64,000 bases of DNA from Collinsella ihumii (GTDB lineage Bacteria > Actinomycetota > Coriobacteriia > Coriobacteriales > Coriobacteriaceae): the NCBI RefSeq assembly GCF_900046475.1, contig NZ_FCOU01000001.1, positions 1-64,000 of the forward strand, read 5' to 3'. The position numbers were made by a program, and so were the translations under genes. The notes beneath the pieces are model-generated. The model had not been told where the DNA came from. It saw only the letters and a list, made by a program, of their open reading frames with translations, and made no database searches. Below, piece by piece: positions 4,706-30,935 of this stretch (position 1 is its first letter; each line of letters opens with the position of its first letter).

Positions 4706-7700
4706 TTACTTGCCGAGGCCCTTGCCCAGGCGGTCGGCCACGGCGGCCACGGCATCCTCGGATACCGCACCGCACGCGCGGCAGGAGTCGCCGCGATCGT
4801 CGAGCGGGTTGCGCGTGTCGTCGTCCTCGGCGTGGTGCGGGCGGAACTTGGAGTCGACGGCGTCCATCTCCAGCGGCTTGATGTGCTCGAGTGTGAAGCC
4901 CTTGCCGGCGCGCATGTTCTCCTTGGCGACCGAGATCATGAGCTTGATGCGGTTGAGCTGGTTGACCTCGGAAGCGCCCGGATCGTAGTCCACGGCGACG
5001 ATGTTGCTCTCGGGATGGCGGCGGCGCAGCTCCTTGATGACCGACTTGCCCACGACGTGGTTCGGCAGGCAAGCGAACGGCTGGGTGCAGATGATGTTCG
5101 GCGCGCCGTGATCGATCAGGTCGAGCATCTCCGCCGTGAGCAGCCAGCCCTCGCCCATCGTGTTGCACAGGGAGAGCACCTGGCTCGCCTTGGCGGCAAG
5201 CGCGCTGATGGGCTCGGGGCGCTCGAAGCGCTGCGACTTCTCGAGGATCTCGTCGGCGGGCCCGCGCATCCAGTCGATCAACTTGATGAGGGCGGCCATG
5301 GCCGTGCGCTGCGTACCGGAGCTGCCGAGCTCGCCCTTATCGTTCTCGGCGCCGCTCATCGCGAACAGGAAGAAGTCGAGCAGGCCCGGGACCACGGCCT
5401 CGCAGCCCTCGTGCTCGATGACGTCGACCACGTGGTTGTTGGCGGTGGGATGGAACTTCACGAGGATCTCGCCCACCACGCCCACGCGCGGCTTGGTTCC
5501 CTCGCCCTTGAGCGGCATGGTGTCGAACGCCCGCACGCTCTCGCGCACGAGCTTGGTGTAGCTGTGGCGCGTGAAGGTCGGCGCCATCTCGCGCGCCTTG
5601 GCCATGTACTTCTCGTACAGCGCGTTGGCCGCGCCCGGCTCGACCTCGTAGGGGCGGCAGCGGTAGAGCATCTGCATCATGACGTCGCCGTAGAGCACCG
5701 CGTAGACAGCGGCCTTCAGGATCTGCGGCGTCACCTTGAAGCCGGGGTTGTCCTCGTCGAGCTTCACGGCGGAGATGGAGATGACCGGGATCTCGGGGTG
5801 GCCGGAATCCTTCAGCGCCTTGCGGATGAGCGCGATGTAGTTCGTCGCACGGCAGCCGCCGCCGGTCTGCGAGATAATGACGGCGGTGCGCGACAGGTCG
5901 TAGCGGCCGGACTCGATGGCCTCCATGATCTGGCCCGTGACGAGAATCGACGGGTAGCAGATGTCGTTGTTCACGTACTTCAGGCCCGCCTCGACCGCGC
6001 CGCGGTCGGTGGAGGGCAGAAGCTCCAGGTTGTAGCCGTTCTTGCGGAAGACCTCCTTCACCAGGTCGAAGTGGATCGGCGCCATCTGCGGGCACAGGAT
6101 CGTGTAGCCGTCACGGCGCATCTGCTCGGTGAACTTGACCTTGGGAAACGCTGCGGAGGCGGCGCGGCGCTGCGCGGACAGGGCGTACTTGTGCGTGGCG
6201 AACACCGGAGCCTCGTCGCTCGGGGCGACCGGCGCAGCATCGCCCTGCTCGTAGGCCTCGCCGGCGGCAGCGGCCTCGGCCGCGCGCTCGGCCTCCTGGT
6301 CCTTCAAGGCGGCCATGAGCGAGCGGATGCGGATGCGCGCCGCGCCGAGGTTCGACACCTCGTCGATCTTGAGCACGGTGTAGATCTTGCCGGAGCCCTC
6401 GAGGATCTCCTGCACCTGGTCGGTGGTCAGCGCGTCCAGGCCGCAGCCGAAGGAGTTCAGCTGGATGAGATCGAGGTCGTTGCGCAGCGTCACGAGCTTG
6501 GCCGCGCGATACAGGCGGCTGTGGTACATCCACTGGTCCACGACACGGATGGGACGGTCGGGCTTGACGAGGTGCGCCACGGAGTCTTCCGTGAGCACGG
6601 CGAAGCCGAAGCTCGCGATGAGCTCGGGCAGCGCGTGGTTGATCTCGGGGTCGTTGTGGTAGGGGCGACCGGCCAGCACGATGCCGTGGCCGCCGTGCTC
6701 CTCGATCCAGTGGATGGCCTCCTCGCCCATCGTCTGGATCTGCTCATGGAAGGCGGTGTCCACCTCGTAGGCGTAGTTGACGGCGTCGTCGACCTCGCGG
6801 CGCGTCAGCTTGGGCCCGCGCACGCGGCCGCGGCCGGCCTCGGCGTCGGACACGCGCTGCTCGGCGAGCACCTCGTACAGGCGGCGCTTGAGCGCCACGC
6901 GGTCGTTATACGGCACGAACGGGTACATGAACTCGATGTTCTTCTCGGCGAGCTCGTCGATGTTCAAGCCGAGCGCCGTGGGGTAGCTCATGACGATCGG
7001 GCAGTTGTAGCAGTTGCCCGCGGCCTCGTCCTCCTTGCGCTCCTTGCGGATGCAGGGCATCCAGATGAAGTCCGGATCCTTGTCGATGAGGTTCATGATG
7101 TGGCCGTGGGAGAGCTTGGCCGGATAGCACACGGACTCCGACGGCATGGACTCGATGCCCGCCTCGTAGGTCTTCTTGGTAGAGTCGTCCGACAGCACGA
7201 CCGAGAAGCCGAGCTTGGTGAAGAACGCGTGCCAGAACGGGTAGTCCTCGTACATGTTGAGCGCGCGCGGGATGCCCACCGTGCCGCGCGGGGCCTCGTC
7301 GGCGTCCAGGCACTCACGGTCGAACAGCAGCTCGTTTTTCTTCTTGAACAGGTTCGGGGCCTCGGTCTTGCTCTTCTTGTGCCCCGCGCCCTTCTCGCAG
7401 CGGTTGCCCGTGATGAAGCGGCGACCGCCGCCGAAGTCGTTGATGGTGAGCTGGCAGTTGTTGGAGCAGCGGCCGCAGCGCGCGTGCTTCTGCGTGACGG
7501 TGAGGTCGGCGATCTCGCCGGCGGTCAGGATGGTCGAGACGCCGGCGGCGCCGGCGCGGTCGCGCGCGAGCAGGGCGGCGCCGTAGGCTCCCATGCAGCC
7601 GGCGATGTCGGGACGCACAGCGTCAAGGCCGGTGAGCAGCTCGAAGGCGCGCAGGGTCGCGTCGGACATGAAGGTGCCGCCCTGGACGATGACCTGGTCG

Positions 7701-9355
7701 CCGATCTCGGACGGGTCGCGCAGCTTGATGACCTTGAACAGGGCGTTTTTGATGACGGAGTAGGACAGGCCCGCGGCGATGTCGCCCACCGTGGCGCCCT
7801 CCTTCTGCGCCTGCTTGACGCGGGAGTTCATGAAGACGGTGCAGCGGCTGCCCAGGTCGACCGGGTTCTTGGCGCCGATGGCCTCCTTCGCGAACTGCAC
7901 GACGTCCATGTTCATGGACACCGCGAAGCTCTCGATGAAGCTGCCGCAACCCGACGAGCAGGCCTCGTTCAGCATGATGTGCTCGATGACGCCGTCGCGC
8001 ACGCGCAGGCACTTCATGTCCTGGCCGCCGATGTCCAGGATGAACTGGACGCCGGGGAGGAACGCGCGGGCGCCGCGCAGGTGGGCCACGGTCTCGATCT
8101 CACCGGAGTCGGCCTTGAGCGCCTCGATGAGCAGCGCCTCGCCGTAGCCGGTCGTGGTCACGTGCCCGATGGTGCAGCCGGCAGGGATATGCGCGTAGAA
8201 GTCGGCCATGATGGTCTTGGCCGTGCCGAGGATGTCGCCGTTGTTGTTGCCGTACCACGTGTGCAGCAGCTGGCCGTCCTCGCCCACCATGGCGGCCTTC
8301 ATCGTGGTGGAGCCGGCGTCGATGCCGATGAACACGCGGGCGCCCGTATAGGTCGCTAGGTCGCCCTTGGGCACGACCTCGCGGTCGTGGCGCTCCTTGA
8401 ACGCGCGGTACGCCTCCTCGTCGGCGAACAGCGCGTCGAGGCGCGCGACCTCGGAGCCCTGCGTGTCGCCGAGCGCGTCGATGGCCTCGATGAGCTCGGG
8501 GAACGTTGCGAGCTTGTTGGACTCGTGCGCCATGGCGGCGCCGCTCGCCACGAACAGGTGCGCGTTCTCGGGCACGATGCGGTGCTCCTCATCGAGCTCG
8601 AGCGTGATGTAGAACCGCTTACGCAGCTCGGAGAGGTACTGCAGCGGGCCGCCGAGGAACGCGACGTTGCCGCGGATGGGGCGGCCGCACGCGAGGCCCG
8701 AGATGGTCTGCGTGACGACGGCCTGGAAGATGGAGGCGGCGACGTCTGCGGGCGCCGCGCCCTCGTTCAGCAGGGGCTGAACGTCGGTCTTGGCGAACAC
8801 GCCGCAGCGGGAGGCGATCGGGTAGATGGTCGTCGCCTCGCGGGCGAGCTCGTTCAGGCCGGACGCGTCGGTGTGCAGCAGCGTGGCCATCTGGTCGATG
8901 AACGCGCCCGTGCCGCCGGCGCAGGTGCCGTTCATGCGCTGCTCGATGCCCTGGTCGAAGTAGATGATCTTGGCGTCCTCGCCGCCGAGCTCGATGGCGA
9001 CATCGGTCGCGGGGATCAGGGTCTCCACGGCGCGCTTGCTCGCGATGACCTCTTGCACGAACTCCAGGCCGAGCCACTGGCTGAGCAGAAGACCGCCCGA
9101 GCCGGTGATGGCGCAGGTCATGGGCGTGCGCTCGAGCAGGCCGGCCGCGCCCACGAACAGGTCGCGCGCGCAGGCGCGCACGTCGGTGTGGTGGCGCTGG
9201 TACTTGGCGTAGACGATCTGGTTGTCGTCGTTCAGGACCGCGAGCTTGACCGTGGTGGAGCCCACATCGATACCCAGGTGGAGCGTACCGTAGGCGGCCT
9301 CGGGATTCCAGATGCTGCCCTCGGGGACAACACCGATCTTGATCTCGTCGCTCAT
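4706..9355 (-). CDS. Giant acyl-CoA dehydratase activase fusion (two BadF-type ATPase domains, DUF2229, HgdB-like domain)
   Basis: A 1549-residue protein combining parts of the 2-hydroxyacyl-CoA dehydratase system. ASKHA-type ATPase domain 1 begins at GIDVGSTTVKLA (about residue 28) and contains NGTCAGGTGAF. ATPase domain 2 begins at FIGIDAGSTTMKAA (about 342) and contains DIGGQDMKCL and NEACSSGCGSF, the cysteines that in activases hold a [4Fe-4S] cluster between subunits. A CGRCSNNC motif follows at about 627, then a DUF2229-like region, and from about 1085 an HgdB-like region (CPQMAPIHFD). It ends with CRACG. Related proteins of about 1400-1500 residues are widespread in anaerobes and usually lack an assigned substrate. 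The ATG directly abuts the stop codon of the upstream TetR gene, implying coupled translation. Domain identity is confident; a role in ATP-driven low-potential electron transfer is family knowledge. Confidence 0.85.
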   Translation of the reverse strand: MSDEIKIGVVPEGSIWNPEAAYGTLHLGIDVGSTTVKLAVLNDDNQIVYAKYQRHHTDVRACARDLFVGAAGLLERTPMTCAITGSGGLLLSQWLGLEFVQEVIASKRAVETLIPATDVAIELGGEDAKIIYFDQGIEQRMNGTCAGGTGAFIDQMATLLHTDASGLNELAREATTIYPIASRCGVFAKTDVQPLLNEGAAPADVAASIFQAVVTQTISGLACGRPIRGNVAFLGGPLQYLSELRKRFYITLELDEEHRIVPENAHLFVASGAAMAHESNKLATFPELIEAIDALGDTQGSEVARLDALFADEEAYRAFKERHDREVVPKGDLATYTGARVFIGIDAGSTTMKAAMVGEDGQLLHTWYGNNNGDILGTAKTIMADFYAHIPAGCTIGHVTTTGYGEALLIEALKADSGEIETVAHLRGARAFLPGVQFILDIGGQDMKCLRVRDGVIEHIMLNEACSSGCGSFIESFAVSMNMDVVQFAKEAIGAKNPVDLGSRCTVFMNSRVKQAQKEGATVGDIAAGLSYSVIKNALFKVIKLRDPSEIGDQVIVQGGTFMSDATLRAFELLTGLDAVRPDIAGCMGAYGAALLARDRAGAAGVSTILTAGEIADLTVTQKHARCGRCSNNCQLTINDFGGGRRFITGNRCEKGAGHKKSKTEAPNLFKKKNELLFDRECLDADEAPRGTVGIPRALNMYEDYPFWHAFFTKLGFSVVLSDDSTKKTYEAGIESMPSESVCYPAKLSHGHIMNLIDKDPDFIWMPCIRKERKEDEAAGNCYNCPIVMSYPTALGLNIDELAEKNIEFMYPFVPYNDRVALKRRLYEVLAEQRVSDAEAGRGRVRGPKLTRREVDDAVNYAYEVDTAFHEQIQTMGEEAIHWIEEHGGHGIVLAGRPYHNDPEINHALPELIASFGFAVLTEDSVAHLVKPDRPIRVVDQWMYHSRLYRAAKLVTLRNDLDLIQLNSFGCGLDALTTDQVQEILEGSGKIYTVLKIDEVSNLGAARIRIRSLMAALKDQEAERAAEAAAAGEAYEQGDAAPVAPSDEAPVFATHKYALSAQRRAASAAFPKVKFTEQMRRDGYTILCPQMAPIHFDLVKEVFRKNGYNLELLPSTDRGAVEAGLKYVNNDICYPSILVTGQIMEAIESGRYDLSRTAVIISQTGGGCRATNYIALIRKALKDSGHPEIPVISISAVKLDEDNPGFKVTPQILKAAVYAVLYGDVMMQMLYRCRPYEVEPGAANALYEKYMAKAREMAPTFTRHSYTKLVRESVRAFDTMPLKGEGTKPRVGVVGEILVKFHPTANNHVVDVIEHEGCEAVVPGLLDFFLFAMSGAENDKGELGSSGTQRTAMAALIKLIDWMRGPADEILEKSQRFERPEPISALAAKASQVLSLCNTMGEGWLLTAEMLDLIDHGAPNIICTQPFACLPNHVVGKSVIKELRRRHPESNIVAVDYDPGASEVNQLNRIKLMISVAKENMRAGKGFTLEHIKPLEMDAVDSKFRPHHAEDDDTRNPLDDRGDSCRACGAVSEDAVAAVADRLGKGLGK

Positions 9356-10042
9356 TTAGTTCCCCTCGTTCTCGAGTTGCAGGTTGAGAAGCTTCATGCC
9401 GTATTCCGGCACGTTGATGTCGATGGGCATGCCGTACAGGTCGCCGGGGCGCACGAAGGCGATGACCGTCATGATGCGCGCCATGGTCTCGGGGCTCTCC
9501 TTGAGGCCGGTCTCGAACCAGCGCTGGATCACGCCGACCTCGGCGGTGACGACATAGCTGAGGTAGTAGTCGAAAAAGGCGCCCAGCGCACCGGGGAAGA
9601 TGCCGGTCTGCATGCGGTCGGCGACCGCCGCGCGCGCCAGGTCGATGAGCTTCTTGATGAACGCCGGGTCTCCGCCGGGGCCAAGAAGCGATCCGATGAG
9701 CTCGCAGTGCTTGCGCAGGTAGTCGAGCAGCTCGACGGAGCCGGGGGCGGGAGCCAGCTCATCGATGTTGCGATAGAGCTCCGGCAGCGTCGAGGCGCCG
9801 ATGCGCGCCACGAGCTCTCCGATGTCTTCGAGTAGGACGGACTCCACCTGCTCGACGAAATCGGGAATGTCCTTGTAATGGGAGTAGAACGTGCGCCGCG
9901 TCAGGCCCGCGCACTCGGTGAGCGACGCCACCGTGATGCGCGACAGGTCCTCGCCCGCGCTGAGCTGCCGGACGAGCGCGCCGAGCAGCGCGTGCTGCGA
10001 ACGCAGCGACCGGCGGTCGCACTTGAAATCGGTTTGTGGCAT
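9356..10042 (-). CDS. TetR/AcrR family transcriptional regulator
   Basis: A 228-residue one-component regulator. The N-terminal helix-turn-helix is visible at about residues 34-56 (ITVASLTECAGLTRRTFYSHY), followed by a helical ligand-binding region without recognisable specificity. The stop codon TAA touches the ATG of the activase gene (TAA-ATG), so the two form one transcript and the regulator probably controls the fusion enzyme and itself. A dyad upstream (10072-10087) overlaps the predicted transcription start and is a candidate operator. The C-terminal region is typical of TetR proteins with a variable effector domain. The effector is unknown. Confidence 0.85.
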   Translation of the reverse strand: MPQTDFKCDRRSLRSQHALLGALVRQLSAGEDLSRITVASLTECAGLTRRTFYSHYKDIPDFVEQVESVLLEDIGELVARIGASTLPELYRNIDELAPAPGSVELLDYLRKHCELIGSLLGPGGDPAFIKKLIDLARAAVADRMQTGIFPGALGAFFDYYLSYVVTAEVGVIQRWFETGLKESPETMARIMTVIAFVRPGDLYGMPIDINVPEYGMKLLNLQLENEGN

Positions 10043-11976: not shown

Positions 11977-12852
11977 ATGGAAGCAGCCGCGTACGCAACC
12001 TGCGGCACCTGCCCGCGCCGCTGCCGCTTGGCGCTGGGACGCCTTGGGGCGTGCCGAGCCCGACGCAACGTCGGCGGCGCGGTGGTGCCCGCAAACTACG
12101 GGCGCGTCACCTCGCTGGCGCTCGACCCCATCGAGAAGAAGCCGCTCGCGCGCTATAGGCCCGGCACCTTCGTGGTCTCGGCCGGAAGCTTTGGCTGCAA
12201 CCTGCGATGCCCGTTTTGCCAAAACGCGGAGATCTCGCAAGCTGACGATGTGGGCGTCCCCTGGCGCGAAATCGCTCCCGAAGAGCTCGTCGCCATCACC
12301 CGCGACGCACGCGACCGCGATGGCCGCGTGATCGGAATCGCCTACACCTACAACGAGCCGCTCGTGGGATGGGAGTACATGCGCGACTGCGCGCGACTGG
12401 CACACGAGGCGGGGCTTGTGAACGTCTTGGTGTCGAACGGATGCGTCGAGCCGAGCGTGCTCGACGAACTCGCGGGGCTCATCGACGCGGCGAATATCGA
12501 TCTCAAGGGGTTTACCGACGGGTTCTACGACGCCTGCGGCGCGCCCGCACACGCGCTCTCCCGCGTGAAGGGCACCATCGCGCGCCTCGCGGCCGATCCC
12601 GCCTGCCATCTCGAGGTCACGACGCTCGTCGTCCCCGACATGAACGACACCGAGGAGGAGATCGATGCGATGGCCCGCTGGCTCGCATCGCTTGATGAGG
12701 GACGCGGGCGTAACACCGTCACCTACCACGTCACGCGCTTCTTCCCGCGCTGGCGCCTCACCGATCGCGGGCCGACGCCCGTGGATGCGGTCTACCGTCT
12801 CGCCGACGTGGCGCGCCGGCACCTCGAGCACGTCTACACCGGCAACTGCTAG
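11977..12852 (+). CDS. amrS: AmmeMemoRadiSam system radical SAM enzyme
   Basis: A 291-residue radical SAM protein of the PflA-like AmmeMemoRadiSam group. It carries the CX3CX2C cluster motif as GCNLRCPFCQNAEIS at about residue 70, which binds the [4Fe-4S] cluster that cleaves S-adenosylmethionine. An N-terminal CGTCPRRC plus CRAR gives extra conserved cysteines typical of this group. YNEPLVGWEY and the NIDLKGF barrel strand are also characteristic, and the C-terminus ends in HVYTGNC. It follows the B-A fusion by 43 bp with GGAGGAG before the ATG, so the two form an operon. The presumed glycyl-radical or other substrate is not encoded nearby. Confidence 0.9.
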   Translation: MEAAAYATCGTCPRRCRLALGRLGACRARRNVGGAVVPANYGRVTSLALDPIEKKPLARYRPGTFVVSAGSFGCNLRCPFCQNAEISQADDVGVPWREIAPEELVAITRDARDRDGRVIGIAYTYNEPLVGWEYMRDCARLAHEAGLVNVLVSNGCVEPSVLDELAGLIDAANIDLKGFTDGFYDACGAPAHALSRVKGTIARLAADPACHLEVTTLVVPDMNDTEEEIDAMARWLASLDEGRGRNTVTYHVTRFFPRWRLTDRGPTPVDAVYRLADVARRHLEHVYTGNC

Positions 12853-21562: not shown

Positions 21563-21650
21563 GTGCTGCTTTTGGGGACAGTCCCTTTTGGACCGCGATG
21601 GCGCATGTGCGCCATCGCGGTCCAAAAGGGACTGTCCCCAAAAGCAGCAC
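21563..21650. repeat. Perfect 88-bp palindrome of the GGGGAC family
   Basis: Two 43-bp arms are exact reverse complements around a 2-base centre. The arm reads from GTGCTGC through TTTTGGGGACAGTCCC to GGCGCA. It starts 23 bp after the stop codon of the dehydrogenase gene. A near-identical core and centre are seen at 45817-45914, but the outermost bases and part of the stem differ. Confidence 0.92.
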
Positions 21651-23827: not shown

Positions 23828-23949
23828 GGCCGTACCTTCCTTGTCGGAAATCTATCGGCCCACAGTCTAGCGCTCCGATGGGCAACAGAGATGAGCTTCA
23901 CGAGCTTTCAAGAACCACAGGGCGCGGCCGGCTCCTTTGAACCCTACCG

Positions 23950-24786
23950 TTATGCGGATCTGACCGCTATCTCCAGCTCTTCAAACAGCGCGCGTCTTGT
24001 GTCAACATATCGTCGCTCCGCTCGCTCGTCTGCCACGATGTGCGCAAGCCCTGCAGCCTCCTCGACGGTGACGAAATCCGTCCGCGATTGGAGCACGGCG
24101 ACAGGCAACCCGTCCGAAACGGGCAGGCGCGCATACGGGCTGCGCACAAGCACATAGCGTGCATCTCGAACCGATTCGCCCGTCACATCGTCATGCCCTT
24201 CCTGCTCGTTCAAGAACAGCACGTATTCACAACCGTCCAAGAAAGGAACCATGCCATCGCGAAACGGCGTCTCAGATGGCTCGACTACAAGAGGGGCACC
24301 ATCCGAATCGCCGCATCCCAGATATTCGAGAAACGCAGCGTATCCTTCCGGATCGTATATCTCCCACGACTCCGCACCTTTCATAGGACCTACCGACATC
24401 TGCTCGTACACCGCTACGCGCTCCCCCTCTGCGATGTCGATACCCTTGATCACATCCGTCACGGTCAATTCGACCGCGCAGGTCTCGTATCCAAACGATC
24501 GATTCCCATCGAACCGACCGATGACGATGGCATCGCTTGTGTCCACTAACGTCGATGGAGGCACCAGACCGGCGCTCTCCACCTCGTGTTCCTGGTCGGA
24601 CAGCGTTTCCTGAGAGGCTGCGCTGTACAGATAGGGCATGGTTTTGATGCGATCGGGATTCTCGCCGTAGTCGCTCAGCCCCCGTTCGGTCCAAACCCCG
24701 AACACGGCGGATCCGCCAACAAGTAGTGCACAAAAAAGGCAACTTAACAGAGCCCATCGACGTGCGAAGCGCATTCGAGACATCAT
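23950..24786 (-). CDS. Membrane-anchored extracytoplasmic protein of unknown function, last gene of the ABC locus
   Basis: I do not recognise this 278-residue protein. One N-terminal hydrophobic helix (about residues 12-30, ALLSCLFCALLVGGSAVFG) follows an Arg-rich start, so it is likely exported and anchored, or released. The rest is soluble, acidic and probably beta-rich: IVIGRFDGNRSFGYETCAVELTV and YEYVLF-like strands recall small metal- or ligand-binding beta-barrel proteins, without a catalytic motif. The ATG overlaps the stop of the ATPase gene as ATGA with GGAGGTG upstream, so translation is coupled. Its position suggests a substrate-binding, immunity-like or accessory role for the ABC system. 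Confidence 0.6.
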   Translation of the reverse strand: MMSRMRFARRWALLSCLFCALLVGGSAVFGVWTERGLSDYGENPDRIKTMPYLYSAASQETLSDQEHEVESAGLVPPSTLVDTSDAIVIGRFDGNRSFGYETCAVELTVTDVIKGIDIAEGERVAVYEQMSVGPMKGAESWEIYDPEGYAAFLEYLGCGDSDGAPLVVEPSETPFRDGMVPFLDGCEYVLFLNEQEGHDDVTGESVRDARYVLVRSPYARLPVSDGLPVAVLQSRTDFVTVEEAAGLAHIVADERAERRYVDTRRALFEELEIAVRSA

Positions 24787-25433
24787 TCGGTCACCTCCGC
24801 AAGCGCCCCGTGGTCCATGCTGAACCGTCTGTCGCACAGCGCCCCGATTTCCGGCACGTTATGAGCGCACACCACGATGGTGCCACCACGTGCCTTGTGC
24901 TCCTGCATGATCTCGACAACCATCCGCAAGCCCGATGCATCGAGCGCATTGGTCGGCTCATCCAGCACAAGAAGCCGCGGGTACTCCATGATCGCCTGGG
25001 CGAGCTCCAGACGCTGCCTCATACCCAGGCTGTAGGTGCGAACAGGGGCGTCGCTTCCGGGATCAAGCCCCACGCGATCGAGTGCCTCCCGCACGCCCTC
25101 GTCACCCACGCGCCCGCGGATCGATGCCAAGGCACGTAGATTGTCGAATCCTGACCAATCATCCCAAAAGCCCGACCCTATCACCGCACCCGTATCCCGA
25201 GGAAACGACTGGGTGTCGCCGAGCTCGTCGCCGAACACGCGAACCGATCCTGCTGAGAGGCGGATCAATCCCAAAACCGCCCTGAGCAGCATTGTTTTCC
25301 CCGATCCGTTCGGACCGAACAAACCGTATATTCTTCCCTCCGGCAAGGAAACGCTGATATCCGAGAGAATCGTTCGTCCCTTGATAACTTTCGTCGCGTT
25401 GCTCACTTCCACGCACATCGGAGTGCTCGACAT
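24783..25433 (-). CDS. ABC transporter ATP-binding protein
   Basis: A 216-residue ABC ATPase. Walker A is GLFGPNGSGKT at about residue 40, the signature is YSLGMRQRLELAQAI at about 133, Walker B is LLVLDEPTNALD, and the switch His lies in VCAHNVPEI. The signature is of the short form typical of CcmA/BcrA-type exporters (bacitracin and lantibiotic self-protection), not of importers. It is the third of a run in which two permease genes precede it; the gap to the upstream permease is 36 bp and the overlap with the downstream gene is four bases. It energises the two permeases at the cytoplasmic membrane. The substrate is unknown. Confidence 0.9.
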   Translation of the reverse strand: MSSTPMCVEVSNATKVIKGRTILSDISVSLPEGRIYGLFGPNGSGKTMLLRAVLGLIRLSAGSVRVFGDELGDTQSFPRDTGAVIGSGFWDDWSGFDNLRALASIRGRVGDEGVREALDRVGLDPGSDAPVRTYSLGMRQRLELAQAIMEYPRLLVLDEPTNALDASGLRMVVEIMQEHKARGGTIVVCAHNVPEIGALCDRRFSMDHGALAEVTE

Positions 25434-25469
25434 GGAATCATCCCCTTTCGTTCACGGGATCGGAGTTCC

Positions 25470-26213
25470 CTAAGCTCCCCGGTCGCCCTCGGAGAAGCGC
25501 ACGAGGTCCGTCCGGCGCACAAGCAGGATAAAGACCGCCAGCAACGCGCACAGAGCAGCCAGAAACACCATGAGTTGCATGGCGGCGCTGGTCGGTACCA
25601 CGGGATACGCGATCTCCGTGAGACCCCACCCCGTCGAAGGGGCGCTACCCGCCAAACCCGGCACCATGCGCACGATGAAATCGATGAGCGCACAGAGGCA
25701 CGCAAGGGCAAAGGCGAGCTGCACCCTCTTGAACATAAGGTACGCGCAGGCCATGAGCAGGGACACCGCACAACCGTAGCAGGCAACAAGCACCGTGTGC
25801 ACGCATGCAAATGCAGCCAAGGACAGCATGCGAACGTCCAGCCCCTCCGCCGCGCACAGGCATACCATCGCGCTGGATGTGAAGACAGCAGCAAGGAGCG
25901 CGGAACGCACAAGCATGAGACCGAATACCGAGGCCGCCGCCCGGTCCCGGCTGCCCATGCGCATACAATACGTCTCGATCTCTAGCACCTTGAGCGCGCA
26001 GGCGGCATTCAGCAGAATCAAGGGAGTGAGCACGAATACACCGTACCCTATGCCGGTCATATCCGAATACTGCGCAAAGGGCTCCCAGCCGCCAGGCCCT
26101 CCCCCATGGGAACCATGGACGGCGAGCTGCATGCACCGCACAAAGATTAGGGCGAAGGCACCGAGGGCGAGCGTCTTGTCGAACAGCCGAAGGCGCATAT
26201 CGGCGCGTCTCAT
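25470..26213 (-). CDS. ABC transporter permease component (six-helix), second of the pair
   Basis: A 247-residue hydrophobic protein with about six transmembrane helices and a short extracytoplasmic loop rich in Gly (HGSHGGGPGGWEPF) after the first helix. It has no homologue I can name, but its size, topology and position between another six-helix protein and an ABC ATPase make it a permease subunit of an ABC-2/BcrB-like exporter. Its ATG overlaps the stop of the upstream permease gene as ATGA. The two permeases differ in sequence, so the channel would be a heterodimer. Confidence 0.7.
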   Translation of the reverse strand: MRRADMRLRLFDKTLALGAFALIFVRCMQLAVHGSHGGGPGGWEPFAQYSDMTGIGYGVFVLTPLILLNAACALKVLEIETYCMRMGSRDRAAASVFGLMLVRSALLAAVFTSSAMVCLCAAEGLDVRMLSLAAFACVHTVLVACYGCAVSLLMACAYLMFKRVQLAFALACLCALIDFIVRMVPGLAGSAPSTGWGLTEIAYPVVPTSAAMQLMVFLAALCALLAVFILLVRRTDLVRFSEGDRGA

Positions 26214-27055
26214 ATCGCCACATCCTCACATCGAGCACAGCGTACGAGAAACACGATGCACGCACCCAGCACGAAGAGCGGCGCGATGACGAAGAACAGG
26301 ACTGAAAGCCCCGAAACCAAAACGCATGGGTAAAGATAAAACGACAGGTTCAGCTGGCGCGGCAGCAAGAAGAGCGAGATCAGGTAGAAAAGGGTCGAGA
26401 ACCCCAGAACGGCAAGTCGATTCCGCCTGATGATAAACGAGGCCGAAAACGACACCAGCGCCATGATGCCGCCCCAAAGAGAGGCGTACACGATAAACAT
26501 CATGTTGTACAGATACGGATAATCGACCATCATCTCGGGAATCAGTGCATTCGCAACCTGCGCGCGAGCGTCGGCAAGATTCGAAGCGGGAGTCCCAAAC
26601 CAACTGGAAAACGCATAGGGACCGCTCTCTATCGGAAACAAGGTGAACGCCAGAAGCTGCGACAGCAGCAGAGGGACGAGCAGCACAAGCATCCCGCCGA
26701 TACCGGTGCACACCGCACACGATGCGATATAGGGGCCCTGCCCGCACCGCGCGATGAGATGGCTCGATATGCCCGATTTGCGCGCCACGTAATGGCAATC
26801 CGCGAACACAGAGCTCGATATAAGGAAAAAGAGCAGGTAGATCCCCACACCGAACGACCTGATCTGTAGCGGTTCAAAATGCCCGATCCAACCCCGCGCA
26901 GCCGACGGCAAAGCCGCGCGATCAAAACCTGGAAAGTGGAGGCAACCTTCAACGAACGAAACACATACGAGCGCCGTCATGCACACAAGGCAGATCCACG
27001 GTTCCTTCCTGCCCACGAGGCGCCGAGCCTGAAGCCGCATCATTGTCCAAAACAT
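26210..27055 (-). CDS. ABC transporter permease component (six-helix), first of the pair
   Basis: A 281-residue protein with an N-terminal amphipathic start (MFWTMMRLQARRLVGRKE) and about six transmembrane helices, with a long extracytoplasmic loop after the first (GCLHFPGFDRA...). The layout is that of ABC-2 type permeases. GGGAGGGGGCGG lies upstream of the ATG at 27055; an in-frame upstream ATG at 27139 would overlap the preceding gene and has no ribosome-binding site. It is the first transport gene after the two exported small proteins, and its product probably pairs with the next gene's. Confidence 0.7.
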   Translation of the reverse strand: MFWTMMRLQARRLVGRKEPWICLVCMTALVCVSFVEGCLHFPGFDRAALPSAARGWIGHFEPLQIRSFGVGIYLLFFLISSSVFADCHYVARKSGISSHLIARCGQGPYIASCAVCTGIGGMLVLLVPLLLSQLLAFTLFPIESGPYAFSSWFGTPASNLADARAQVANALIPEMMVDYPYLYNMMFIVYASLWGGIMALVSFSASFIIRRNRLAVLGFSTLFYLISLFLLPRQLNLSFYLYPCVLVSGLSVLFFVIAPLFVLGACIVFLVRCARCEDVAI

Positions 27056-27135
27056 GTCCGCCCCCTCCCGCGCGCCTAGCGGGGGCGCAACCATCCGCGC
27101 CCCCGCCGCACGTCGATGCGCATCAAATCTTAAGG

Positions 27136-27540
27136 TCACCCAAAGTCAACAGCTCCCCAAACATGTTGATTGCCCGCAAGGTTCCAGCCAATCTGACAAC
27201 CACGAAGCTGCACTGAAGCAGTCCAGGTATGAGGGGCGTAATAGTTCAAATAGCGCGTATCCCCCGCATTCACCGTTACAGAATCCGTCACCCTATTGCC
27301 GGTATCGCGGTCAACCCAGAATATCCCACCGAATGATGAATCCGACCAGAGCTGCACTGACGCTCGCGTCGATGAGGTGAAACTCTTTGTACCCGTCACA
27401 ACGGTGACATTTTCCTGTCTGGGTGGAAGAGAGAGATCGATTGCGCCAGATCCCGCATAAGCGGGAACGGCAGCTAAGCCAAGCGCCATCGCAAGCAACA
27501 TAACTGGCAAGAAACGTCTCGCTCCATTGCTTTTCTTCAT
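27136..27540 (-). CDS. Small exported beta-rich protein A (DUF2712-like layout)
   Basis: A 134-residue protein with a clear Sec signal peptide (KKSNGARRFLPVMLLAMALGL ... AVPAYA) and likely cleavage after AYA. The mature part of about 105 residues has short beta-strand-like segments, Gly/Asp/Asn turns, one Cys and a C-terminal GAVDFG. The sequence FGGIFWVDRDTGNRVTDSV and the final WGAVDFG recall the layout of DUF2712-type small exported proteins near ABC transporters in Firmicutes; this resemblance is from memory and tentative. Two adjacent ATGs (27543, 27540) follow AAGGAG; the second has better spacing. It may be the cargo or ligand of the downstream ABC system. Confidence 0.6.
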   Translation of the reverse strand: MKKSNGARRFLPVMLLAMALGLAAVPAYAGSGAIDLSLPPRQENVTVVTGTKSFTSSTRASVQLWSDSSFGGIFWVDRDTGNRVTDSVTVNAGDTRYLNYYAPHTWTASVQLRGCQIGWNLAGNQHVWGAVDFG

Positions 27541-27693
27541 CATGCGCTCCTTTCCATTTACCTCAAGTTCTTTCTTATTCTCTTGGTATTCGCCGCGAAG
27601 GGCCCTGAATCTATCCACCTCCCCGAAAGAAGCCCCCGCATCAGCCAGTTCAAGCCACCACTTCCTTGTTGGGCAGTGACCGTTATGTCATCG

Positions 27694-28095
27694 TTACCAG
27701 CTGTACATCTTGACATCAGAAGACCGGACGACCGCACTATCCGTTCCCTGCCGAGAAATGACAAAACGATATATGCCGGGATCATTCGATTGCCAAGTTG
27801 CTTTAGTAAAACCCTGATAACTAAATGATCTAGTCCCCAGCGATGAACCTCCCGAATAGCCGCTATGGCAGGAAACGAGCAATCGCCCAGAAACCGCAGC
27901 AGAGCAGGTCATTTCAATTCCTATGTTATTGCCATCAAAGTACTGAGCAGGAGTAGTTATCGACTTACCTGTAAGGGTAAATGACCATCCATACCAGCTT
28001 CTTGGAACAATTAGTGCCATCGCGGTTGATGGGACAGGCACCAGCCCTAACGCGCTGAGAACTAATATCTTGAGCGCCCTTCTCCTGTCAATCAT
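27694..28095 (-). CDS. Small exported beta-rich protein B
   Basis: A 133-residue protein with a twin-arginine-like basic start (MIDRRRALK) and a hydrophobic core ending in STAMA, a plausible signal peptidase site. The mature domain (about 105 residues) is rich in Ser, Gly, Thr and aromatic residues in alternating beta patterns (SGRLLVSCHSGYSGGSSLG), with two Cys that could form a disulfide outside the cell. I do not recognise a family. Its size and export mirror protein A immediately downstream (154 bp away), suggesting two components of one surface or secreted assembly. GGAGGAG precedes the ATG. Confidence 0.6.
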   Translation of the reverse strand: MIDRRRALKILVLSALGLVPVPSTAMALIVPRSWYGWSFTLTGKSITTPAQYFDGNNIGIEMTCSAAVSGRLLVSCHSGYSGGSSLGTRSFSYQGFTKATWQSNDPGIYRFVISRQGTDSAVVRSSDVKMYSW

Positions 28096-28206
28096 CTTCG
28101 CTCCTCCATCCCTATCGGTCTAGAACGAGCATCAGACTAGAAGGAGAGCCCGGCTATGTATGCCGTCACATCGTATGAAAACGTCGGCTCACACGTGATG
28201 GCATCG

Positions 28207-30750
28207 CTATTCAGCACGCGATACTTGATCGACAAGTTCGACAAGCTGACGCTTGGAATGGACGCCGAGTTTTCGATATCCATTTCTTCTAGCGGAATTA
28301 ACTGAACCTGCCGAACAGTGGAGTGCTTTCGCGATCTCGGGGCCGCTAAGCCCCCGAACGATTTCCAGCAAAACCGATATCTCGGTTTCGGACAATCCAT
28401 GGGCTCGAAACAGGAGAGTCACGGCATCCGGGGCTTTGATGAATGAGATATTCCGACTCTCACCGCGCACAACGCTCGCGATTGCGATCGCCGCGCAAGC
28501 TGTCGCGGTAAGAAACAGGGCAGAAAAGAGAACCATCCGACAAGCCGCATACACCATGTAATCGTACGTCGAAGACAGGACCATAAGGGTCCCTTGAGCC
28601 TCTGCATCCACAATCGAAAGGGATGCACACCACTGCCCGAACACCAAGCCACCGGCAACAGCAGACATGATGTCCCGCCATGCCGCTCGATTGGTCCCGA
28701 AACCGAGCAGGTGCCGCGACATCAAGAAGATGAAGATCGCCGACAGCAGCCCGCTTGAAGACCGATACAAATACGGATAGACCGTGTCTGCCGCAGCGGC
28801 GCACATCCCAACGATCAGCGCGAGCAACAGGCAAGCCACGAATTGCCTGCATCTCGAACTCCTCTGAGCGGCCACCGCGACGAGAAGGAAAACGGTGGCG
28901 AAGAACACTACGGGAAGCACCGGAGCGAGATAGCCCACGAACCCCTGCCATGTTTCAACCCAGCCGGCCCCCATGCCAAACGCCACAACGAGCACTGCTG
29001 CGTTCCTCTTTGATATCTCTTGATTCGATTCTTGTACATACGGCTGTGAAAAAACGAACCCGAAACGTGAGAACAACGCGAGCATACTTGCCGCCCCGAC
29101 AATCCATGCCAAGACGGCAACAAGCGCCCATAGAGCGTACGACCAAGAGGAGCACGCGCACATTAACGCGGCAACGGCGCATATGCGCAAGCGCGAGCAA
29201 CGCGTCGAGCCACCGCATGAGACACCTGCGGCAACAAGCCCGCAAAGCGCTCTGGCAAGACTGGGGGCAAAGCACCCGAAACACAGGTAGGTGGCGAAAG
29301 CCCATGCGTGAGGATAGATAAGCGGATCATGATAGGGATCGATCACGGCGAAACCGATGCGATACAGCATAGCACCAGCTAACAGGAGCGTAATCGCAGT
29401 CCCCACACACAGCTTTCGACCCTCCAGTACAACGCGAGGAAAAACCGCTCGGGAAAGCACACCGAGTACGAAACCGCAGCACGCGTGGAGCATGGGCCCT
29501 GGTGAGCAGGTAAGTGGAGAGAAGCACAGCAGGTACACGAGGACCATGACGCTGCATGCGGCAGCGGGAACGGCAATCGCGAAGACTCGCGACTCCTTAG
29601 TTTTACCGATGAGGCACGATGACCCCGATTCTCCAGGAATCTCGACACTGAGATCTCGACCAGCCTCGCCAGAGCCGGCACCGCGGATCAAGGCTTTAAG
29701 CTCCCGGAGCGACGATACGCCTATCTTTCGATATGCGCGCTGCATGTACGAGCGCGCGGTCGACGGACGGATCCCCAACTCCGCAGCCGCCTCAGTCGAT
29801 GTCTTTCCAATCAGGCAAGCGGTCACGACGGCGCGCTCGCTCTCCGCAAGGTCGAACCCCAAGAGAAACGACTGAAGCTGAGTATCAATCTGCATGTCGA
29901 CGTCATCTTGAACCGTTGCGTCCTTCTGGCAATACGGAGATCGTATGCGTATCCATACGATCCGAGCGCACGCAACGATCCCCCAAAGCAGGGGAAGTGC
30001 CCACGAACATATGATTACGGAATCGAGGGAAAAGTTTCGCATTTCGAGAAGCCCGACAGACATGACCGACCCGAACAGTACTGCCCTCGCGTCATGGCGC
30101 AAGCCGTCAATATCGTCGCCGCAACGCACCCTTTCGCGCCGCAACGCAAGAATCATCAAACCGGACGCGATTGCAGGCAGGATGGCGGGCGGAATGAAGG
30201 GCCAACCGAATATCCAGCCGCTCATGGAGCAAATGGTCCACCATACAACACAACACATAATCGAAAACACGAGAAACAGATCGGAACGGAACAGGGAATC
30301 CAGAAACGACCATGCGGCGGCGCAAGACATATGCATAAGACCGCCTCGCGTATCGCTAAGCAGCAGGAAGGTCGATGCCATAGTCCCCAAGAAACAGACA
30401 AACGGAACTGCCGTCGGGTATGCTGCCCACACAACGCCTTCCACGGCAATCGCACCGAATCCCACCAGATATTCCAGAGCCAATGCAATTGCGGCAAAAG
30501 CACTGATAACGGGGGCGACAACGTAGGCAAACGGCTTCGATCCGAATAGCGGCAAGGCTTTATATGAACTCATAGCGAAAGCGGCGGATATCCCTAGAAA
30601 GGGCACAGACCCCAAGGTGGAAATCCTTAACAACGCAACGAACGGATCGAGATGTCGCATCCAGACATGATGGGGCATTCCTACAATAAGGACGAAGGAG
30701 ATCGCCGCCGCTGCGGAACGCATTCGGAGCTTCGGTCGACGGTCATCCAT
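28207..30750 (-). CDS. Double membrane-bound LuxR-type regulator (two TM + HTH modules in one protein)
   Basis: An 847-residue protein built as two similar modules. Module 1 has several transmembrane helices (residues about 12-265) and a LuxR/GerE helix-turn-helix at about 297-357 (LAESERAVVTACLIGKTSTEAAAELGI). Module 2 has about ten helices (388-760) and a second LuxR helix-turn-helix at about 783-845 (LSETEISVLLEIVRGLSGPE). Both recognition helices end with a YRK(I/L)GV motif. Single-module membrane LuxR proteins are numerous in Coriobacteriia; a fused pair is unusual. It heads the minus-strand cluster of exported proteins and an ABC transporter and probably regulates it in response to an external signal. 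AAGGTGGG lies before the ATG. Less GC-biased codon use than its neighbours is visible. Confidence 0.8.
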   Translation of the reverse strand: MDDRRPKLRMRSAAAAISFVLIVGMPHHVWMRHLDPFVALLRISTLGSVPFLGISAAFAMSSYKALPLFGSKPFAYVVAPVISAFAAIALALEYLVGFGAIAVEGVVWAAYPTAVPFVCFLGTMASTFLLLSDTRGGLMHMSCAAAWSFLDSLFRSDLFLVFSIMCCVVWWTICSMSGWIFGWPFIPPAILPAIASGLMILALRRERVRCGDDIDGLRHDARAVLFGSVMSVGLLEMRNFSLDSVIICSWALPLLWGIVACARIVWIRIRSPYCQKDATVQDDVDMQIDTQLQSFLLGFDLAESERAVVTACLIGKTSTEAAAELGIRPSTARSYMQRAYRKIGVSSLRELKALIRGAGSGEAGRDLSVEIPGESGSSCLIGKTKESRVFAIAVPAAACSVMVLVYLLCFSPLTCSPGPMLHACCGFVLGVLSRAVFPRVVLEGRKLCVGTAITLLLAGAMLYRIGFAVIDPYHDPLIYPHAWAFATYLCFGCFAPSLARALCGLVAAGVSCGGSTRCSRLRICAVAALMCACSSWSYALWALVAVLAWIVGAASMLALFSRFGFVFSQPYVQESNQEISKRNAAVLVVAFGMGAGWVETWQGFVGYLAPVLPVVFFATVFLLVAVAAQRSSRCRQFVACLLLALIVGMCAAAADTVYPYLYRSSSGLLSAIFIFLMSRHLLGFGTNRAAWRDIMSAVAGGLVFGQWCASLSIVDAEAQGTLMVLSSTYDYMVYAACRMVLFSALFLTATACAAIAIASVVRGESRNISFIKAPDAVTLLFRAHGLSETEISVLLEIVRGLSGPEIAKALHCSAGSVNSARRNGYRKLGVHSKRQLVELVDQVSRAE

Positions 30751-30881
30751 CTCTACCCACCTTCCGATAGTGCCAAGGTATGTCCACTATAAGTCAGCGC
30801 TGAAAACAACCCCCTGACGTTCCACCCGAACGAAAGGAAATCGTGCCTCGAAGGAACATATTCGCCATCCCGCCACAACTC

Positions 30882-30912
30882 TTGACTTGGAGCCAACTCA
30901 AAGAGGTACGCT
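30882..30912 (+). promoter_or_regulatory. MerR-type promoter with 19-bp spacer and operator dyad
   Basis: TTGACT (30882-30887) and TACGCT (30907-30912) are separated by exactly 19 bp, the overlong spacer used by MerR-family activators. The spacer holds the imperfect dyad CTTGGAGCCAACTCAAAG (30886-30903), close to operators of the AdhR/NmlR branch. It lies 24 bp before the merR gene, implying autoregulation. Confidence 0.75.
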
Positions 30913-30935
30913 GATATAAGAAGGAAAGGAGCTCC

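Follow-up and report, generated by a model that had tools for sequence, protein, structure and literature searches.

What is the function of a bacterial locus that sets a double membrane regulator and two small exported proteins beside a transporter with two different permeases? We addressed this question for Collinsella ihumii in a 64,000-nt stretch (contig NZ_FCOU01000001.1, positions 1 to 64,000; hereafter the window) of a 2.84-Mb draft genome in 35 contigs. At 23950-30750 the window holds seven minus-strand open reading frames (ORFs), all of which we recovered where a preliminary description had placed them: they encode a LuxR-type regulator, the exported proteins sp133 and sp160, the permeases P1 and P2, an ATP-binding cassette (ABC) ATPase and a membrane-anchored protein, exo. 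We agree with that description that this gene set, which is conserved, corresponds to no named system that we recognise. Our preferred, still tentative explanation is that Sec-exported bacteriocin-like proteins are joined here to a self-protection module like LanFEG/LanI under a membrane sensor, the whole forming a horizontally acquired competition locus. A producer/immunity pair fits best because sp160 was found only with the transporter, the transporter also occurs without sp160, broken sp160 genes stand beside open transporter and exo genes, and the module appears to be mobile.

According to this explanation, sp133 and sp160 would be secreted through the Sec pathway, folded and rich in beta structure, and would act, possibly together, beyond the producer cell; their most probable target is the envelope of related bacteria. 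A heteromeric ABC-2 transporter would be formed by P1, P2 and the ATPase, with exo as its extracellular binding partner, and the transporter with exo would shield the producer as LanFEG plus LanI shields lantibiotic producers. The double LuxR would sense an extracellular or envelope cue and turn the locus on.

Pairing of sp160 with the transporter

At the family level, P1 matches were found in 9 and sp160 matches in 4 of 65 genomes, source genome included. Across 396 genomes of the class, P1 occupies 29 strong places (E 2.1e-39 or better) in 24 genomes, or 48 genomes if weaker matches are admitted. For sp160 there are 15 confident places (E 1.3e-12 or better) in 12 of 395 genomes of the order, and every one of the 15 lies directly upstream of P1. 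The sp160 tally of 20 genomes includes eight whose matches are all weak (E 1e-4 to 7e-4) and lie for the most part at the end with the signal peptide; these were left out, as were P1 matches below the strong threshold (among them a partial second match in G335, 1.7e-18) and two loci cut by contig ends (L088, L092). One further match, in G107 (L086), was rejected by eye as an unrelated protein with a CxxCH motif.

The 29 P1 places divide into 15 with sp160 (11 with an open frame, three with one in-frame stop, one with a fragment) and 14 without, one of which, in G398, sits at a contig end; P1-ATPase-exo is about as common without sp160 as with it. Beside the broken sp160 genes (in-frame stops in G335, G208 and G248, a fragment in one G239 copy), P1, P2, the further permease P3, the ATPase and exo are open and of normal length or longer in four of four cases. 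By analogy, the alternation of sp160-with-P1 and P1-alone places resembles that of producer loci and orphan immunity loci.

Gene maps were drawn for the 29 P1 places and L089, 30 modules in all, and each of the 30 contains the ATPase and exo. P2 is short in L016 and was not found in L068, which is rearranged to P3-ATPase-exo-P1. The preliminary description had asked whether gene order is conserved beyond this strain, and it is, in other genera: the full order recurs in Olsenella-type relatives with P3 after P2, and LuxR-sp133-sp160-P1-P2-P3-ATPase-exo is found in L070, L077 (=L096), L080 (=L094, where sp160 has a stop) and L082 (=L100). The sequence of L081 (=L097) begins inside sp133, L071 is without sp133, and in L069 and L089 LuxR precedes P1, and homologues of sp133 and sp160 were not found in the interval. 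With f1 denoting the window's own family and f2 and f6 other families in the same analysis (f2 being, we infer, Atopobiaceae), P3 is absent from the window and eight other f1 modules, and present in the f1 module L016 and most f2 modules. A profile search of 396 phylum genomes (profile A6) gave G000, G063 and one weak match, all of the same order. Homologues in the same gene order in other genomes, together with fewer nonsynonymous than synonymous changes per site (pN < pS) in diverged sp160 and sp133 pairs, show that the locus is not a chance arrangement.

Gene layout, composition and insertion site

Start codons were re-chosen for sp160, P1 and exo by ribosome-binding site (RBS) and homologues. 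The tight junctions of the preliminary description hold for the two ATGA overlaps, P1/P2 and ATPase/exo (-4 nt each). P2 and the ATPase are 36 nt apart; the regulator and the small genes are spaced more widely, by 111 nt (LuxR-sp133), 150 nt (sp133-sp160; 153 from the second ATG) and 80 nt (sp160-P1). Because of these gaps of 80-150 nt, the regulator and the two small genes could have separate transcripts. An argument on transcription units from promoters and terminators was given up, since promoter- and terminator-like matches at the locus are no more frequent than in shuffled sequence. In the table, TM stands for transmembrane and HTH for helix-turn-helix.

Features of the locus in the window
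Feature	Position	Strand	Remarks
LuxR, double membrane regulator	28207..30750	-	847 aa, TM-HTH-TM-HTH
sp133, exported protein	27694..28095	-	133 aa, signal peptide, C-terminal MYSW motif
sp160, exported protein	27136..27543	-	135 aa from ATGATG start, predicted 8-strand jelly-roll
P1, multi-TM ABC-2-like permease	26210..27055	-	ORF opens 27139; start 27055 preferred (RBS-like stretch before ATG, alignments)
P2, second, different permease	25470..26213	-	ATGA overlap with P1
ABC ATPase, LanF/DrrA/CcmA-like	24783..25433	-	Pfam ABC_tran E 4.7e-26
exo, N-terminal TM helix and outside netrin/TIMP-like domain	23950..24786	-	AlphaFold model
Stretch of ~7.0 kb that two congeners lack between their M18 aminopeptidase and MerR genes	23871..30878	.	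G033, G043

A lower GC bias had been reported for 26.2-30.7 kb. The shift is real but spans all seven genes, with GC content at third codon positions (GC3) of 0.46-0.76 as against 0.80-0.92 in six flanking genes. PADLOC returned matches to the ATPase and HTH only. Elsewhere in the window, at 21563-21650, the two 43-nt arms of an inverted repeat match perfectly around a 2-nt loop.

The M18 gene is present in 43 of 43 genomes of the genus, source included, although G040 has only a distant one. It is adjacent to MerR in G033 and G043, which we read as the empty site. Close MoxR genes (66-77% identity) occur in seven congeners, G033 and G043 among them; M18 and MoxR are adjacent, with MerR undetected, in G045, G039, G044 and G023, and stand ~3.9 kb apart in G042. 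Because an L131 intergenic stretch has short, weak homology to window positions 23853-23870 (E 0.008) and 30879-30913 (E 1.9e-4), the junctions are placed near 23870 and 30879. As judged from these comparisons, ~7.0 kb would have been gained in the source genome or lost in the congeners, and gain is favoured because of the low GC3; the acquisition hinted at in the preliminary description thus agrees with both the GC3 shift and the empty site.

Direct repeats bracket the module in five of 18 loci tested. Flanking repeats exceed 100 shuffles in L070 (35 nt), L071 (60 nt), L082 (41 nt) and L021 (184 nt), and L019, also among the 18, has a 300-nt direct repeat pair; in the window, the flanking repeat of 11 nt does not exceed the shuffle maximum of 12. 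The 41-nt repeat of L082, at 5560-5600 and 12799-12839, encloses the whole locus. In the G211 genome its 30-base core (three mismatches or fewer) has only the two copies that flank the locus, of which one overlaps the 3' end of an arginine deiminase gene and the other adjoins an ornithine-carbamoyltransferase-family gene; in G337 the core is likewise found twice, on two contigs. In G239, the only full-length copies of the 60-nt repeat are the two that flank the module; seven partial ones lie elsewhere. The L021 repeat (8234-8417) belongs to a dispersed element of ~165-184 nt with inverted ends and ~30 copies in the 1.7-Mb G028 genome, and gives weak evidence for mobility. Among the copies listed, the one on the opposite side of the module is the closest to it. 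By eye and unaligned, flanking repeats differ between loci, and no recombinase was noticed in the modules. Four module copies were found in G239 and two in tandem in G291.

Because of the empty site, the low GC3, the flanking repeats and the multiple copies, the locus is apparently a conserved mobile unit at differing chromosomal sites. Searches for P1 of L096 on plasmids (tblastn) and for profile A5 in viral contigs gave no matches. In the P1 tree, the window groups with f1, f6 and G250 rows in a 12-row clade (99/99) and not within the clade of seven f1 rows; this position leaves plain transfer from Atopobiaceae unsupported.

Proteins of the locus and competing explanations

The layout, one ATPase with two distinct multi-TM proteins, is that expected of a LanFEG-type transporter, and we infer from layout and topology (seven hydrophobic segments in P1, six in P2) that P1 and P2 are ABC-2 permeases. 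Together with the anchored partner, this bears out the likeness to bacteriocin self-protection loci seen in the preliminary description. LanFEG/LanI systems (NisFEG-NisI, SpaFEG-SpaI) share with the locus one ATPase, two dissimilar permeases, a surface-anchored partner and orphan copies, the last of which occur in non-producers according to the accessible part of PMC4239024. On sequence criteria, formal membership of LanFEG fails on three tested features. The best NCBIfam match of the ATPase, ahead of DrrA and CcmA, is TIGR03740 of the lantibiotic-protection subfamily, with 127.8 bits below a cut-off of 309.75; no NCBIfam model, those that we take to represent LanE and LanG included, is matched by P1 or P2 at E<=1; and lantibiotic biosynthesis or modification families find no match among the seven locus proteins and the three neighbours scanned. 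The f2 relatives mostly have a third permease, unlike LanFEG, and the partner differs from LanI in being modelled as a TM-anchored netrin/TIMP-like domain. No Pfam family was found above cut-off for 19 P1 homologues, and P3 of L096 has sub-threshold matches to ABC2_membrane_4 (E 0.053) and DUF2705.

The exo protein has one hydrophobic segment, and its AlphaFold model (11 sequences; mean per-residue confidence, pLDDT, 80.5; predicted TM-score, pTM, 0.75) consists of a TM helix, with residues 3-41 modelled as a single N-terminal helix, and a domain. Fifty VIA-align rows form a consistent netrin-like set, comprising agrin NtA, TIMP, complement C3/C4/C5, PCOLCE1 NTR and meteorin NTR (Z 9.6 to 7.2 over 100-136 residues, root-mean-square deviation 3.2-5.7). 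Foldseek gave a best E of 8.4e-4 with low TM-scores, and the match of L096 exo to Pfam NtA (E 0.12, below cut-off) agrees with the model. We therefore describe exo as a probable membrane-anchored netrin/TIMP-like domain, a likeness of fold only; by eye, with no dedicated predictor, it has no clear lipobox.

By inspection rather than by a predictor, sp133 and sp160 have Sec-type signal peptides. The preliminary description had the ABC transporter export them, which is not supported by the sequences because they carry their own signal peptides and ABC-exo often occurs without them. The six members of sp133, window included, are all at the same place. Below cut-off, sp133 matches a Pfam antifreeze repeat (E 0.0071), and the longer sp160 ORF an NCBIfam molybdopterin model (E 7.6e-4, 17.6 bits, cut-off 534). 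Kinship between sp133 and sp160 is unconvincing by profile comparison (probability 14%, 32 columns), and profile searches of the PDB with sp160, sp133, exo and P1 gave nothing credible. The sp160 model (six sequences) is an eight-strand sandwich with pLDDT 72 overall and 73-86 per block past residue 30, whose structural matches (Z 8.2 to 6.7) are PirA, Pgp3, GOLD domains, a subtilisin domain, CBM6, lectins and viral coat proteins; matches in BFVD are generic only. Lactococcin 972 is not among the structural matches listed, which excludes nothing. It resembles the candidate effectors as a small unmodified exported protein and, we presume, also in its beta-rich fold, Sec export and linked ABC transporter; sp133 and sp160 differ from it in having no family match, and sp160 in a size that we take to be larger. 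Lactococcin 972 binds lipid II, as stated in the accessible part of PMC8538875.

The in-frame stops of sp160 in L067 (gene at 9225-9641), L080 (9556-9945) and L084 (8274-8669) all fall in the early mature part, and the remaining frame is open and conserved. Three stops so close together are odd and might reflect recent inactivation, assembly error, or a switch- or read-through-like arrangement.

Several observations weigh against antagonism and self-protection. Beyond the lack of an NCBIfam family for P1 and P2, neither sp133 nor sp160 has a Pfam or NCBIfam match above cut-off or belongs to a bacteriocin or antimicrobial family, and the models indicate a jelly-roll for sp160 and nothing more specific, a fold that is generic. 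In three f1 pairs, conservation is higher in sp160 (55-61%) than in P1 (42-47%) or exo (27-34%), and pN < pS in 21 of 21 sp160 and 10 of 10 sp133 diverged pairs, with pS saturated in many; in the near-identical pair L081/L082 (sp160 pN 0.003, pS 0) changes are too few to tell. Because of this conservation and of pN < pS in diverged pairs, sp160 does not look fast-evolving, unlike a diversifying toxin. Transporter genes are, moreover, damaged in modules without sp160: P1 has a stop in one G028 copy and in G398 (contig end) and matches only positions 75-283 in G032, and P2 is short in the other G028 copy and was not found in L068. Finally, the membrane LuxRs described in Coriobacteriia answer to substrates of metabolic enzymes and not to envelope damage, as far as the accessible part of PMC9734109 goes.

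The better conservation of sp160 and the damaged transporter genes keep alive a rival that we consider unlikely, a resistance module devoid of toxin. There, LuxR would sense foreign antimicrobials and ABC-exo would clear them from the membrane, while sp133 and sp160 would act after secretion as binders or decoys, either by capturing the compound or by shielding wall glycans. The frequency of ABC-exo without sp160 (14 of 29 P1 places), the purifying selection on sp160 and the resemblance of its model to carbohydrate-binding modules and lectins, among other jelly-rolls, are consistent with such a role. Resistance alone leaves the exclusive pairing of sp160 with the transporter unexplained, and no locus protein matches a catalogued antimicrobial-resistance transporter family above Pfam or NCBIfam cut-off.

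The jelly-roll predicted for sp160, like CBM6 and collagen-binding domains, would also suit a surface or adhesion locus, in which lectin-like or adhesive sp133 and sp160 would act while the transporter and exo help to place a glycan or lipid at the surface and LuxR senses host or diet molecules. Catechols, dopamine and catechin among them, elicit a response from three membrane LuxRs of the class (PMC9734109), which fits such sensing. By eye, though, sp133 and sp160 have no wall-anchoring signal, and ABC-exo is kept where sp160 is broken or absent; we regard this role as improbable.

The absence of a modification enzyme, claimed in the preliminary description, is true of the window but not of two relatives, in which a radical S-adenosylmethionine (SAM)/SPASM protein is encoded upstream of sp160 (L019, 6080-7345; L022, 7008-8279). 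These proteins are nearest to peptide-maturase and heme-synthesis models, under every cut-off shown; genes close to them include one for HTH_26 and one that is DUF2975-like, weakly so in L022. They raise the idea that sp160, or an unseen peptide, is the precursor of a ribosomally synthesised and post-translationally modified peptide, modified by radical SAM enzymes in some lineages and exported by the ABC transporter. Such genes stand at only two of 15 sp160 places (L015 and L081, with ~1 kb or less upstream, are uninformative), the window has none, and sp160 has a Sec-type signal peptide, which makes this origin highly improbable.

The regulator is a tandem version of a known membrane LuxR family. 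It contains 14 hydrophobic segments and two HTHs, near 300-345 and 786-839, and combines a multi-TM region with a GerE HTH as in the Coriobacteriia membrane LuxR family; with two HTHs it departs from the arrangement of a single C-terminal HTH after one TM domain. Pfam detects two GerE stretches in the window LuxR and one each in those of L089 and L085. All nine regulators compared (window, seven linked relatives and L085) have a central and a terminal HTH-like stretch, and a cluster of hydrophobic segments precedes each of the two; in L070 and L080 the terminal one resembles the window HTH only weakly. Homologous tandem regulators stand directly upstream of the module in L069, L070, L071, L077, L080, L082 and L089, giving eight of 30 modules with the window counted. 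DadR, CadR and HcdR (10-12-TM LuxRs of Coriobacteriia) are of the same class, with a membrane-spanning LuxR and GerE HTH; the window LuxR differs in having two TM-HTH modules in one protein and in its linkage to exported proteins and an ABC transporter, where the accessible part of PMC9734109 describes a metabolic enzyme. The surface sensing of the preliminary description has this membrane LuxR as its sole basis and is not upheld.

The source genome has a second, paralogous double-LuxR locus on contig C14 (L085, 5257-11652), encoding a LuxR of 781 aa, an exported protein, P1-like and P2-like permeases, an ATPase (TIGR03740, 142.5 bits, under cut-off) and another exported protein; homologues of sp133 and sp160 were not found there. 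Between LuxR and P1 of L069, a short exported ORF (9603-9806, 67 aa, a signal peptide and short tail) is perhaps a truncated sp133.

Implications for Coriobacteriales

A limited literature search, covering titles and the starts of abstracts of open-licence papers, showed no paper on such a locus among those listed, which is weak evidence of absence. It is possible, though we hold it with more reserve than the competition locus itself, that the modules constitute a new Coriobacteriales class of mobile antagonism system, with two Sec-exported, beta-rich effectors, a heteromeric ABC immunity transporter of two or three permeases, a tethered TIMP-like receptor and a tandem LuxR sensor, inserted at varied sites. 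The locus is built on six families (P1, P2, P3, sp133, sp160 and exo), and every member scanned fell short of all Pfam and NCBIfam cut-offs. If the antagonism explanation is true, Coriobacteriales would have their own competition system, and the large membrane LuxR sensor family that they encode would gain a non-metabolic role.

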